Assembly: GCA_001563795.1 (NCBI GenBank)
Contig: LKML01000012.1
Location: 1-35,780 of the forward strand
Direction of reading: 5' to 3'
Length of the DNA stretch: 35,780 nt
From: Haloferacaceae archaeon B1-Br10_E2g22
GTDB lineage: Archaea > Halobacteriota > Halobacteria > Halobacteriales > Haloferacaceae
Positions 32,121 to 35,780 of this stretch are shown here, one piece after another. The notes under the pieces were generated by a model. That model saw only the letters and a program-made list of their open reading frames with translations, was not told where the DNA came from and searched no databases. Numbering within the stretch: the first letter of the stretch is position 1; each line of letters starts with the position of its first letter. The position numbers were made by a program, and so were the translations under genes.

Positions 32121-34049
32121 TTATTTGAACCGGAACGTCTCGAGGTTTTTCGGTGCAAACGTCCGGATGTTGTGTTCGTGATACAGCGCCGACGAGAGGT
32201 CTTGGACGGATCGTTCGTCACCGTGGACACAAAGGACTTTCTCCGGACGTGGGTTCATTGTGCCGACGAAATCCATGAGTCCCTTGCGGTCTGCGTGGCC
32301 TGAAAAGCCGTCTACGGTTTCGACATCAAGGTTGAGTTTCAGCGAACTCGAGCGGCCACCGTTGCCGTAGCTGTTGTTCATCGGAATCTCGTCCCAGCCG
32401 TTTTGAATCCGCCGGCCGAGTGTTCCCTGTGCCTGATACCCGACGAACACGAGCCTCGAGTCCGGGTCGGGCCCAATATGACGGAGCCACGACATGATCG
32501 GGCCGCCGGTGACCATCCCTGAAGTCGAGAGAATAATACACTGATCTCCATCAGTGACCTCCTGGCGTTCGTCTTCGCCAGCATCAATATGATTGAACTG
32601 ATCCGCAAGGAAGGGGTTTTTGTCCTCGTGGAAGATCCGGTTTTGGAGGTCGTCTCGGAGATACTCCGGATAGGTCGTATGAATCGCTGTCGCTTCCCAG
32701 ATCATCCCGTCGAGATGAATCGGCATTTCGGGAATCTTGCCGGTTCGCATCGCCTCTTCTAAGACGAGCATGATCTCCTGAGAGCGGCCGACTGCGAACG
32801 CCGGAATGAGCACTTTCCCGCCGTCGTCATACGTTTCGTTGATTACCTCGATGAGTTTTTCTTCGGAGTCTTCTTGATCGGTTTGGTAGTCGTTTCGACC
32901 GCCGTACGTCGATTCCATGACGAGCGTTTCGACTCGCGGGAAATCGTTGACTGCGCCGTTGAAAAGGCGGGTGTCTTTGTAGTGGATATCACCGGAGAAA
33001 GCAACGTTGTACATCCCATCGCCGATATGGAAGTGCGTGACTGCTGAACCGAGAATGTGGCCCGCATTGTGGAATGTGATCTTTACGTCGGGTGCGATGT
33101 CAGTGACATCGCCGTACTCGAGCGGGATGGTGTGTTTGATCGTCTCACGAACCTGTTCGGATTCGTACGGCGGTGTTCGACCCTCTTTGGTGGCGACATC
33201 GAGATAATCGAGCTGGAGCAGCCCCATTAGATCGCGGGTTGGCTCCGTACAGTAGATCGGCCCATCGTAACCGTATTTAAATAAGAGGGGAAGCAGCGCC
33301 GAGTGATCCAGATGAGCGTGAGTAAGCACCACCGCATCAATGGAGTTCGGTCCTGACCCAAGGGCTTCGGGCACCTGCAGGTATGGAACCTCACCTTCCG
33401 CACCGGGTTTGTCTCCGCAGTCGATCAGGATGCGGGTTTCGGCCGTCGAGAGAATAAAACTCGCCCGTCCGACCTCACGACAACAACCCAGCGTTGAGAT
33501 TCGAACCCACTGTTCGCGGCCCATCTCTTCGCGGTGGATCTGTCGGCCGACGCGCTCGAGAATGTCACGTCGTTCGTCACGTTCCTGTTTGAGGAAGTTC
33601 CGCACGTTCGAGACGGTCGAGGATTCGATTGGTGGAGTTCGGACGACCTCGGGTGTCCAGCCGACCTGTTTTGTGATCTCACGGAGCGTCGAGCCGTGTC
33701 GGCCGATCACCATTCCTGGTTTTTCGGCTTCGATAACGACCTCACCAGTGTCTTGGTGGAAATCTAGATCAGTGATACCGGCTTCATCAGGAATCACAGA
33801 CCGAATGTCGCCTTCGGCGGCTTTGGGTGCCGAAAGTGCTTCAGGGTCTGGCCGGACGGTGATACGCTTGCGAAGTTTACCAGCGAGGTTCCGGATTAGT
33901 TCACCGTTACGGGCGAAACGTTTGGGATGGGGTGTGTATATCACCAGTTCCGGGCCTTCGTAGGTGACATCGGAGACGGTAATATCGGCTGGAACCTCGG
34001 CGTCAATCTCTGCTTTCAGTTCGTCGAGTTGCTTGTCTACTGAACTCAT
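32121..34049 (-). CDS. fttA: Transcription-termination nuclease FttA (aCPSF1), KH-MBL-beta-CASP
   Basis: This 642-residue protein has two N-terminal KH domains (about 1-70 and 71-150, the second with GMVIGRHGSTLREI). They are followed by the MBL core with THAHLDHSALLPL (H244, H246, D248, H249), HNAGHILGSAVTHF, FSGDIHYKD, and the beta-CASP motifs (MESTYGGRND, IPAFAVGRSQE, STSGMVTGGPI, VDGFSGHADRKGL, VHGDERS). It is the archaeal counterpart of CPSF73. It cuts nascent RNA at U-rich sites and promotes transcription termination genome-wide (family knowledge). The likely promoter word at 34240-34248 on minus implies a leader of up to about 165 nt; a closer start is possible. Confidence 0.97.
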   Translation of the reverse strand: MSSVDKQLDELKAEIDAEVPADITVSDVTYEGPELVIYTPHPKRFARNGELIRNLAGKLRKRITVRPDPEALSAPKAAEGDIRSVIPDEAGITDLDFHQDTGEVVIEAEKPGMVIGRHGSTLREITKQVGWTPEVVRTPPIESSTVSNVRNFLKQERDERRDILERVGRQIHREEMGREQWVRISTLGCCREVGRASFILSTAETRILIDCGDKPGAEGEVPYLQVPEALGSGPNSIDAVVLTHAHLDHSALLPLLFKYGYDGPIYCTEPTRDLMGLLQLDYLDVATKEGRTPPYESEQVRETIKHTIPLEYGDVTDIAPDVKITFHNAGHILGSAVTHFHIGDGMYNVAFSGDIHYKDTRLFNGAVNDFPRVETLVMESTYGGRNDYQTDQEDSEEKLIEVINETYDDGGKVLIPAFAVGRSQEIMLVLEEAMRTGKIPEMPIHLDGMIWEATAIHTTYPEYLRDDLQNRIFHEDKNPFLADQFNHIDAGEDERQEVTDGDQCIILSTSGMVTGGPIMSWLRHIGPDPDSRLVFVGYQAQGTLGRRIQNGWDEIPMNNSYGNGGRSSSLKLNLDVETVDGFSGHADRKGLMDFVGTMNPRPEKVLCVHGDERSVQDLSSALYHEHNIRTFAPKNLETFRFK

Positions 34050-34239
34050 ATCTCAAAGAAATTCGATTCGGGTCGAGTATCGGTCTCGCCGGCTCGCTGG
34101 AACAGCTGGGAAGACCCACCGCTCTGGATAGCCGGCCGGTTCTTGAAGTCGGTATGGAACATACTCTAAGGACTGTCCGATAGCTGCGAATGCGGGAACA
34201 GACAGCGAAAACCCGCTTGCTCGGCTATAATCGGCTCGC

Positions 34240-34248
34240 ATTATAAAA
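34240..34248. promoter_or_regulatory. TATA-like word ATTATAAAA between fttA and the next gene
   Basis: ATTATAAAA precedes ATG 34291 by about 45 bp and could serve the plus-strand gene with a 20-nt leader. Its reverse (TTTTATAAT) could serve fttA with a long leader. A further TATAAT lies at 34226-34231. Which promoter serves which gene is not settled. Confidence 0.4.
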
Positions 34249-34290
34249 CCCTTCGCAAAACAAAAGCCGCTGGCCTGTGAGCACCGGCGT

Positions 34291-34773
34291 ATGCACCTTA
34301 CTCCAGGCCGTGTCGAAGCTGAATACGAGTGGGTTCGAGATCGCGCACCTGTGGTCGTCCCACTTGTCAACGAAACACGCGACCGTCTTGGCGTGCTGTT
34401 TGAAACAGAGGTCAAAACCATCACCGAAACAACGTACAAACAGGAAGTAAACACGGTGTTCGCCAACGGCGAGACAGCGGTCAACATCGCCGGCTACGTG
34501 GGACTGCTGCGCGAGTTAGATGTCGAAGGCGATTATCCAGGCTTCATTGTCGACGAAATCCTGGGTCGGGAACTCGCTGCTACCATTGCCGGCGGACAGC
34601 CACTCGCGTTGCTTGCCCAGGCTACGTTCCACTTTGCGGATGTACACACGCATGGTGAGGCTGATGAGAACGCCGGTGTGGATGATCTGGATGCCGCTCT
34701 CGCGGCAGGCTTTCAGACACGGTTGCCGGGCTGGGAGTGGCGAAACGGAGACAGTCCGTTTTCGATCCAGTAG
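34291..34773 (+). CDS. Conserved-looking protein of unknown function
   Basis: This 160-residue protein is acidic in the haloarchaeal manner and has no cysteine or membrane span. It opens MHLTPGRVEAEYEWVRDRAP and continues VVPLVNETRDRLGVLFETEV. A glycine-rich middle (GETAVNIAGYVGLLRELDVE) precedes a His/Asp-containing stretch (AQATFHFADVHTHGEADENA). I do not recognise the family. The HxH (VHTHGE) could bind metal but there is too little else to call an enzyme. Upstream context is fttA (divergent); downstream is the macro-domain gene in the same direction, 192 bp away. Confidence 0.75.
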   Translation: MHLTPGRVEAEYEWVRDRAPVVVPLVNETRDRLGVLFETEVKTITETTYKQEVNTVFANGETAVNIAGYVGLLRELDVEGDYPGFIVDEILGRELAATIAGGQPLALLAQATFHFADVHTHGEADENAGVDDLDAALAAGFQTRLPGWEWRNGDSPFSIQ

Positions 34774-34776
34774 CTG

Positions 34777-34925
34777 TATAAACGCCCTATGGAGACACAG
34801 CGAGGCGGCGTGGCTTCAGACTGTCTGCTCTGCTGAACGGAATACTCACAGACTATCGCTGAACTCAACGAAATACCCACGGTTCTCGAGGAACTCGAGT
34901 GTGACGGCGTGAGTTCCTCCGCCGT
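34777..34925 (+). other. Possible small RNA or regulatory region with two mutually exclusive hairpins
   Basis: TATAAA at 34777-34782 could start transcription near 34805, inside the 192-bp gap. Further on, GAGGAACTC (34888-34896) pairs perfectly with GAGTTCCTC (34911-34919). A second perfect stem ACGGCG (34904-34909) with CGCCGT (34920-34925) uses the loop and the flank of the first, so both cannot form together. No open frame of useful length lies here. The role is unproven. Confidence 0.35.
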
Positions 34926-34936
34926 TGGGAGTGAGA

Positions 34937-34943
34937 TTTTAGC
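34937..34943 (+). promoter_or_regulatory. TATA-like box of the macro-domain gene
   Basis: TTTTAGC lies 26 bp before ATG 34966 and supports that start for a leaderless transcript. Confidence 0.45.
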
Positions 34944-34965
34944 CTCCAGTCGACGTACACCCAGT

Positions 34966-35481
34966 ATGAAACTGACAGCTATCCAAGGAGACATTGCCGC
35001 CCAGCGTGCGGACGCACTGGTTGACGCCGCCAGCACAAGCCTCGAGATGGGCAGCGGTGTCGCCGGCGCGCTCCGCCGTAGGGCTGGTGGTCCGATCAAC
35101 GAGGAAGCCACCTCGAACGGGCCAGTCGAACTCGGAGAGGTTGTCGTCACTGACGCCTACGGTCTCGAGGCAACCTACGTTATTCATGCGGCCGCAATGC
35201 CACACTACGGCGACCGAAAAGCCACCGAAGAAAGCATCCGACTGGCAAGCCGAAACACACTCGAGACAGCCGACGAGTTGGGCTGTGAGTCGCTGGTGAT
35301 TCCGGTACTTGGAACCGGTGTGGCGGGCTTCGATTTCGAGGACGGTGCGCAGGTGATCTGTGAGGAAATCACCGACTACGACCCTGCGAGGCTGACCGAC
35401 GTGCGAGTGATCGCCTACACCGATGCTGACTACGAGCAGCTACAGACTGTCGTCGGTCGGCTCACCAATTCGCAGCGATAA
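34966..35481 (+). CDS. Macro-domain (ADP-ribose-binding) protein
   Basis: This 171-residue single macro domain opens MKLTAIQGDIAAQRADALVD and continues GSGVAGALRRRAGG. The later parts are GPVELGEVVVTDAYGLEATY, VIHAAAMP, and VIPVLGTGVAGFDFEDGAQV. Macro domains bind or hydrolyse ADP-ribose from proteins, nucleic acids or O-acetyl-ADP-ribose. The usual catalytic motif VNAAN reads VDAAS here: the first Asn is Asp (D20) and the second is Ser. Binding may remain while hydrolase activity may be reduced. I chose the ATG at 34966, not the one at 34909, because the QGDI strand starts there and a TATA-like word lies 26 bp before it. Confidence 0.9.
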   Translation: MKLTAIQGDIAAQRADALVDAASTSLEMGSGVAGALRRRAGGPINEEATSNGPVELGEVVVTDAYGLEATYVIHAAAMPHYGDRKATEESIRLASRNTLETADELGCESLVIPVLGTGVAGFDFEDGAQVICEEITDYDPARLTDVRVIAYTDADYEQLQTVVGRLTNSQR

Positions 35482-35625
35482 GATACCCAAACAGCAACGG
35501 TTGGGTACTCGAGCGGCAACAACAGCCAATCGTGGCCTCACGATATGCCTCGAGAGACAGTCTCGGCTACTGGTTGTAATGCCGCGAAGCTACTGGCTTG
35601 CTGGTGTAATATGTTGAACTCAACT

Positions 35626-35752
35626 GCCTCGGGGTCAAGTGGTTCGAGACGCTTTCGTCTCGTCATTGCCAGACTGCGTCTGGCAGGCAGCCAGAAATCT
35701 CTGATTTCTGGCCACATCACGGAATTCGAAGATTTCCGTACGACCCCGAGGC
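35626..35752. repeat. Compact multi-hairpin element (outer stem plus four hairpins)
   Basis: An 11-bp perfect outer stem, GCCTCGGGGTC (35626-35636) with GACCCCGAGGC (35742-35752), encloses four consecutive hairpins. They are CGAGACG/CGTCTCG (35645-35662, loop 4), TGCCAGAC/GTCTGGCA (35667-35685, loop 3), GCCAGAAATC/GATTTCTGGC (35690-35712, loop 3) and ACGGAATTC/GATTTCCGT with one mismatch (35719-35739, loop 3). Linkers are 4-8 nt except at the junction ends. The flanks (35482-35625 and 35753-35780) show no gene. It could be a mobile-element end, a miniature repeat or a structured RNA; the type is not decided. Confidence 0.75.
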
Positions 35753-35780
35753 TTGTCAGTGGACTCCCGCTCTAACTGCG

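Follow-up and report, generated by a model that had tools for sequence, protein, structure and literature searches.

A probable hairpin-only mobile repeat in the right-end hairpin of a haloarchaeal TnpB element

The closest described systems come from Haloquadratum walsbyi, where PATEs are TnpB-less derivatives of IS605 elements with near-terminal palindromes (PMC3119063). The SMR-A repeats of this species (HqIRS42/43/55) are about 110 bp long, have inverted ends and cause no target duplication; they are inserted in the near-terminal palindromes of PATEs and IS605-type elements, and their mobilisation has been termed enigmatic (PMC3119063). Haloarchaeal omegaRNAs (sotRNA) are described as having a hairpin at the right end, together with a terminal motif (PMC12558985).

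The DNA analysed here (the window) is the whole of a 35,780-nucleotide contig, C51, from a haloarchaeal assembly of 152 contigs that is 84% complete. On the sequence comparisons below, a 127-nt block near its end very probably belongs to an IS1341-type TnpB element, a small transposon that encodes an RNA-guided nuclease (TnpB); the block would be the hairpin at the right end (RE) of this element, with a 104-bp hairpin-only small mobile repeat inserted in its loop.

Fold and distribution of the five-helix block

The block (35626-35752) consists of an 11-bp closing stem and four hairpins, A-D:

35626-35636 paired with 35742-35752: closing stem, 11 bp, from the fold
35645-35662, minus strand: hairpin A, 7 bp with a 4-nt loop
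35667-35685, minus strand: hairpin B, 8 bp with a triloop
35690-35712, minus strand: hairpin C, 10 bp with a triloop
35720-35738, minus strand: hairpin D, 6+2 bp with two mismatches

The preliminary description of this DNA had given the same helices, and they all lie where it placed them, save that its fourth hairpin, D, is imperfect in the window copy on account of the two mismatches, whereas it is perfect in most relatives. Hairpin A has one base less in the window than in sister copies. The unusual foldedness that had been claimed for the block was borne out: folding the 127 nt alone as DNA gave z = -8.9 (minus strand) and -8.5 (plus strand), folding 35600-35780 as RNA gave z = -6.1 (plus) and -7.5 (minus), and in both cases none of 200 shuffles was equally stable.

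Compensatory changes in homologues, which the same description had tied to a functional structure, were indeed present. We tested covariation over 16 related arrays, four being the genome's own copies and twelve from other genomes, and found pairing in 96.4% of 587 cells, with both sides changed in 16 of the 39 pairs (69 cells); when partners were slid as a control, 31-41% of cells paired and 2-14 double changes were seen. The set takes in arrays outside TnpB elements, and the pairing is therefore kept independently of any omegaRNA. No Rfam family matched 34000-35780 at E<=1, and a tRNA/tmRNA search of the window returned nothing at the block, its sole result being a tRNA-Thr at 2-75.

The block proved to be multi-copy. 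Blast against the same assembly gave three further near-complete copies (on contigs C5, C12 and C56) and about 11 partial matches, the copy on C50 being truncated, and a covariance-model search gave 33 matches at E<=0.01, many of them being a single locus matched on both strands. A search of 84,980 species for a 22-nt pattern that bridges the end of the inserted unit and the RE stem gave at least 117 matching stretches, and all 80 titles among the matches listed are haloarchaea. The expanded-RE pattern was absent from IMG/VR contigs, and the five-helix block had no match in phage records.

The right end of a TnpB element

The features that place the closing stem are as follows:

35620-35780, minus strand: RE of an IS1341-type TnpB element that is truncated where the contig stops, from unrelated flanks beyond it and from minimal REs
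35620, minus strand: element boundary just past sense ...GCAGTTGA, from flanks that are unrelated in copies L002-L005
35772-35780, minus strand: last two tnpB codons (Arg-Ser) and TAG stop, from homology to the 3' ends of tnpB ORFs
35742-35752, minus strand: RE hairpin 5' arm (sense) GCCTCGGGGTC, from the fold and minimal forms
35744-35752, minus strand: portion of this arm homologous to the minimal RE hairpin, GCCTCGGGG
35626-35636, minus strand: RE hairpin 3' arm (sense) GACCCCGAGGC, from the fold and minimal forms
35600-35619, minus strand: flank, candidate guide of an omegaRNA ending at the RE, from position and analogy to known TnpB omegaRNAs (PMC12558985)

It can be seen that the minus strand ends ...CGC AGT TAG (...ALRS*), the contig breaking inside tnpB. 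Positions 35744-35780 match the 3' ends of long tnpB ORFs at 95-100% identity; these ORFs span 386-411 aa, mostly about 410 aa, and end ...RFRPTALRS* or similar. The TnpB protein of a relative matches Pfam Cas12f1-like_TNB (E 4e-22). The mobile gene that had been suspected past the window edge is thus tnpB. Counted from the tnpB stop, most close relatives read AGCGGGAGTCCACTGACAA, then a 29-nt GCCTCGGGG-CTTG-ACCCCGAGGC-NGTTGA, then C and unrelated flank; the plain RE hairpin of relatives is accordingly GCCTCGGGG-CTTG-ACCCCGAGGC, and the 29-nt minimal REs of many TnpB elements stop at the same boundary as the RE of the window. Other TnpB subfamilies have an RE hairpin at the equivalent position with a different sequence, which supports the hairpin itself. 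On sequence homology we assign the closing stem to an IS1341-type TnpB element on the minus strand, as its RE hairpin; the likeness to a subterminal hairpin of IS200/IS605-type elements that had been proposed thereby gains a family and a fixed 3' boundary.

The terminal motif is GTTGAG in the window as against GTTGAC in nearly all relatives, and given this the window copy may be immobile. A left end (LE) with a hairpin and target motif is seen in a relative (L077), the LE position of the window element being off the contig. Two full Y1 tnpA genes, which need not belong to the window element, lie elsewhere in the genome (C14 and C5). The cognate TnpB was looked for in the same assembly and not found; the best candidate, on C106, is a gene of 44% identity that is likewise truncated where its contig stops. 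The same genome contains a second TnpB subfamily, ending ...GVSD*, whose RE is expanded by two hairpins (G000:C70:9425-9566, L017). Adjoining the window element is a gene for a Macro-domain protein (34966-35481; Pfam Macro, E 5e-28), and a gene for an FttA-type transcription termination factor, with KH, metallo-beta-lactamase and beta-CASP domains, lies on the minus strand at 32121-34049.

Because haloarchaeal omegaRNAs carry an RE hairpin and a terminal motif (PMC12558985), the outer stem is, by analogy, very likely the right-end hairpin of an omegaRNA, and the window has the RE hairpin beside the terminal motif and a guide position that mark such an RNA. An omegaRNA transcribed from this end would presumably be enlarged by the expanded RE hairpin.

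The preliminary description had also considered a miniature derivative, and copies without tnpB do exist. PATE-like copies, among them one on C12 of the same genome (L003) and one elsewhere (L124), have an LE fused to the same expanded RE, and PATEs are known in Haloquadratum (PMC3119063); the block could therefore be read as a PATE, in other words a miniature element that lacks TnpB and is mobilised in trans. As the C5 copy retains about 20 tnpB codons only, a short tnpB remnant is possible in the window too. However, the 3' end of tnpB with its stop stands beside the RE of the window and is missing from PATE-like copies such as L003, and we regard a PATE as unlikely here. In another locus (L132, about 1000-1115) two PATE-like elements lie back to back, their junction being a common GGTTCAC end; one has a two-hairpin RE and the other a plain hairpin.

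Hairpin units in the loop of the right-end hairpin

Within the RE hairpin of the TnpB element we delimited two features:

35640-35743, minus strand: four-hairpin insert of 104 bp, TCGTACGG...CTCGAACCA, within the RE hairpin loop, absent from minimal REs; covariance-model match of 94.3 bits
35666-35716, minus strand: inner unit of 51 bp with two hairpins (C-B), set into the joint GTGA^TGACGAG that separates D and A, from two-hairpin relatives

Minimal REs without the unit read GGGG^CTTG, and some REs hold 54-58 bp (two hairpins, D and A) or 104-111 bp (four hairpins) between GGGG and CTTG. Over all hosts four-hairpin units measure 104-117 bp, the 54-58-bp two-hairpin forms being present as well. 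The unit starts TCGTNCG (or near to it) and ends CGAACCA (TCGAACCA); its ends are inverted (TCGTTCGA / TCGAACCA) and match at 7 of 8 positions in other units, the match being weaker in the window, where the start is TCGTACGG. Expanded hairpins also occur at left ends (L276 and L307).

A 117-bp version of the unit was found inside a palindromic repeat of another genus, g21, which has no obvious similarity to the RE. The empty repeat reads CTCGCTG^CGCTCC as against CTCGCTG[TCGTTCG...CGAACCA]CGCTCC in filled copies, 119 against 236 bases, with no duplication and no loss, and the joined flanks of one filled copy match in 50 of the 53 genomes of the genus. This clean filled/empty pair indicates that the unit is a discrete insertion element of its own. 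No clear target duplication was seen in any of the unit insertions tested. The bases 5' of the insertion differ between the two hosts compared (GGGG in the RE, GCTG in the repeat), and a fixed target tetranucleotide of the Y1 type was not supported for the four-hairpin unit. The g21 repeat (GCCCCAGCCGCGAGG...CGGCTGCCCCTT) is long and recurs, in at least 16 copies, in most of the 53 genomes; copies L351-L362 are empty and L186-L193 filled, and arrays sit in the apical part of some. At the window site itself we infer insertion from the homologous REs; in principle, the minimal RE could be a deletion product and not the ancestral state.

Two-hairpin units without an inner insert read ...GTGATGACGAG... 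at their centre. The joint GTGA^TGACGAG hosts at least four different inner pairs, namely the CCAGAAATC/CCAGAC type of the window and the CTGAGCGGAGC, TGAACGTTGGAC and TCAAGCGACC types, and one array extends to six hairpins, in which these linkers recur. Searched with a strict pattern, the inner pair was found in just 7 of 171 genomes because inner pairs are diverse.

Relatives of the inner pair of the window also interrupt tnpB genes. Exact 52-bp two-hairpin inserts were found in two tnpB copies (G074:C1:1528336, L138, and G091:C6:142604, L139), after AACGCC and before GCGAAA or GCGAAG, in codons of the conserved ...D-Y-N-A^A-K-N motif; a 1-2-base duplication (C or CC) is indistinguishable here from none. 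As against these two filled copies, eleven homologous tnpB copies are uninterrupted and continuous across the junction. In a third case (G094:C16:119, L140), judged from the reading frame alone, the insert lies at the homologous codons of another tnpB subfamily, in the opposite orientation; the three cases come from two genera and fall on the same conserved codons (N-A^A-K/W-N). In five further loci (L007, L008, L018, L135 and L141) the inner hairpin pair adjoins the terminal hairpin of a different type of RE (...GGATTCTC), and in L135 and L141 the pair is joined at ACGCC^G, like the tnpB insertions. The empty sites of the preliminary description were thus found elsewhere, as filled/empty pairs of the g21 repeat and, for the inner unit, of tnpB.

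We conclude from these comparisons that the inner hairpins C-B are, by sequence, a further insert within the four-hairpin unit. A single five-way junction, as had been envisaged, does not describe the block, which is a composite: the terminus stem of an IS with an inserted, independently mobile hairpin unit, which in turn consists of two-hairpin units, one nested in the other. On these comparisons the repeat is layered: a 54-58-bp two-hairpin unit (D-A) forms the first layer, and its central joint GTGA^TGACGAG has taken a second two-hairpin unit (C-B).

The hairpins could instead have grown in place within the RE hairpin, by duplication or template switching and with no mobile unit. By eye there is a partial likeness within the array, C resembling D and B resembling A, and the hairpin flips described below show strand exchange acting here. 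The exact unit boundaries are, however, common to unrelated hosts, and the clean filled/empty pairs elsewhere contradict growth in place, which we hold to be highly improbable.

Triloops, omegaRNA and comparison with described systems

We counted the loops of 244 perfect triloop hairpins from 108 distinct arrays, using the unit ends to fix orientation. GAA was seen 50 times and TTC 47 times, and GGA 35 and TCC 31 times; loop counts correlated with those of their reverse complements at r = 0.98 and with those of their reverses at -0.09, and none of 2000 permutations reached the former, although the arrays share descent, so that the counts are non-independent and of limited weight. In the arrays 99% of loops are closed by C (C-G), and the types C(GNA)G and C(TNC)G make up 76%, compared with 46% C-closed and 19% GNA or TNC among 767 controls, hairpins taken from the same loci. 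DNA mini-hairpins in which a G-C pair closes a GNA loop, for example d(GCGAAGC), are extraordinarily stable (PMC4686876).

Single loops were also seen to flip. The arrays of G016 and G014 are identical save for two triloops, which are reverse complements of each other, and the sense loop of hairpin B is GCA in the window and TGC in the C5, C12 and C56 copies. Between arrays that are identical outside their loops, exact flips account for 32 of the 157 differing loops, the other differences being mostly middle-base changes or switches between the two loop classes. We read the flips as inversion of single hairpins, hence as DNA strand exchange, and the RNA-level constraint on the loops as small. 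Loops that are symmetric between strands and mostly of the stable C(GNA)G type point to a role at the level of DNA rather than RNA.

These observations bear on an initial interpretation in which the complete block evolved as a domain of the omegaRNA and forms a five-way-junction scaffold required by its TnpB. The block lies exactly at the position of the omegaRNA right-end hairpin of haloarchaeal TnpB (PMC12558985), its helices covary, and expanded REs accompany long tnpB ORFs (L083, 410 aa; L269, 424 aa; L262, 456 aa; L279, from Natronococcus pandeyae, 429 aa). However, TnpB relatives 91% identical (for L083) and 87% identical (for L269) have minimal REs with just a 4-nt loop. Both L083 and L269 are placed among minimal-RE relatives in the TnpB tree, and the switch between minimal and expanded forms therefore happened at least twice. 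This interpretation was dropped, and is in our view quite improbable, as the hairpins also occur in hosts other than TnpB elements, in LE hairpins and in the g21 repeat, their loops are strand-symmetric and the inner pair is exchanged for unrelated pairs. Of the structured element proposed in the preliminary description, the outer stem could still be non-coding RNA, as the omegaRNA right-end hairpin, but the inner hairpins look DNA-maintained from their loop statistics and their non-TnpB hosts. The long tnpB ORFs next to expanded REs agree with tolerance of the insert.

Our preferred reading remains an inserted repeat in the RE hairpin. Units of this kind are cleanly inserted in palindromes, whether these are the hairpins at the RE or LE of TnpB/IS605-type elements, PATE-like miniature elements or the unrelated g21 repeat; they also lie within one another and, occasionally, in tnpB codons. 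Because their triloops are mostly C(GNA)G, occur about equally in both orientations and sit in hairpins that flip singly, the units may move and persist as single-stranded or cruciform DNA hairpins, favouring palindromes. With the closing stem intact after insertion, TnpA recognition and the omegaRNA RE hairpin could persist, a transcribed omegaRNA would just gain a bigger apical domain, and the unit would be a hitch-hiker on the TnpB or PATE element. More broadly, we put forward tentatively that haloarchaea possess a class of selfish DNA made of gene-free hairpin pairs, which might enter palindromes, each other included, at loops or joints and without duplicating the target, stack to 2, 4 or 6 hairpins that invert freely, have triloops selected for DNA hairpin stability, transpose or be copied via folded single strands, and, when carried in RE and LE hairpins, enlarge TnpB omegaRNAs.

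From the present comparison, SMR-type repeats probably range across the haloarchaea; their anatomy, the exact limits of the unit and its DNA-hairpin signature can now be stated, and the mechanism becomes testable. The findings also serve as a warning that omegaRNA scaffolds predicted from genomes can include parasitic hairpin inserts, and they provide a natural TnpB RE-hairpin site that tolerates about 100 additional nt beside long tnpB genes.

To our knowledge, a hairpin-only mobile repeat has been described from one species alone, though it is widespread in haloarchaea. The REP, REPIN and BIME repeats of bacteria are small, non-coding, dispersed hairpin pairs like the present units, which differ in that they nest and insert into other palindromes. 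Copies L003, L124 and L127-L129 resemble PATEs: they lack TnpB, their two ends (LE and RE) belong to one IS type, and they have near-terminal palindromes, whereas the window copy retains the tnpB end and has an insert in its palindrome loop. With IS1341-type and IS200/IS605 TnpB elements and their omegaRNAs the window shares the tnpB stop, conserved spacer, RE hairpin, GTTGA(C) and guide flank (PMC12558985); it differs in an RE loop grown from 4 nt to about 108 nt.

The unit matches every feature of SMR-A that we compared, by description and not by sequence: a length of about 110 bp for the unit type, inverted ends, lack of target duplication and the same preference for palindromes. Unlike SMR-A, the present units occur across haloarchaeal genera and also in other palindromes and tnpB codons, and their anatomy is resolved as hairpin-only, with nested two-hairpin units, an exchangeable inner pair and flipping GNA triloops. 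As far as the searched open-access literature goes, the nested two-hairpin build and exchangeable inner pair are new. The same holds for the inserts found in codons of tnpB and in a further palindromic repeat, for GNA triloops that flip, and for so wide a range.
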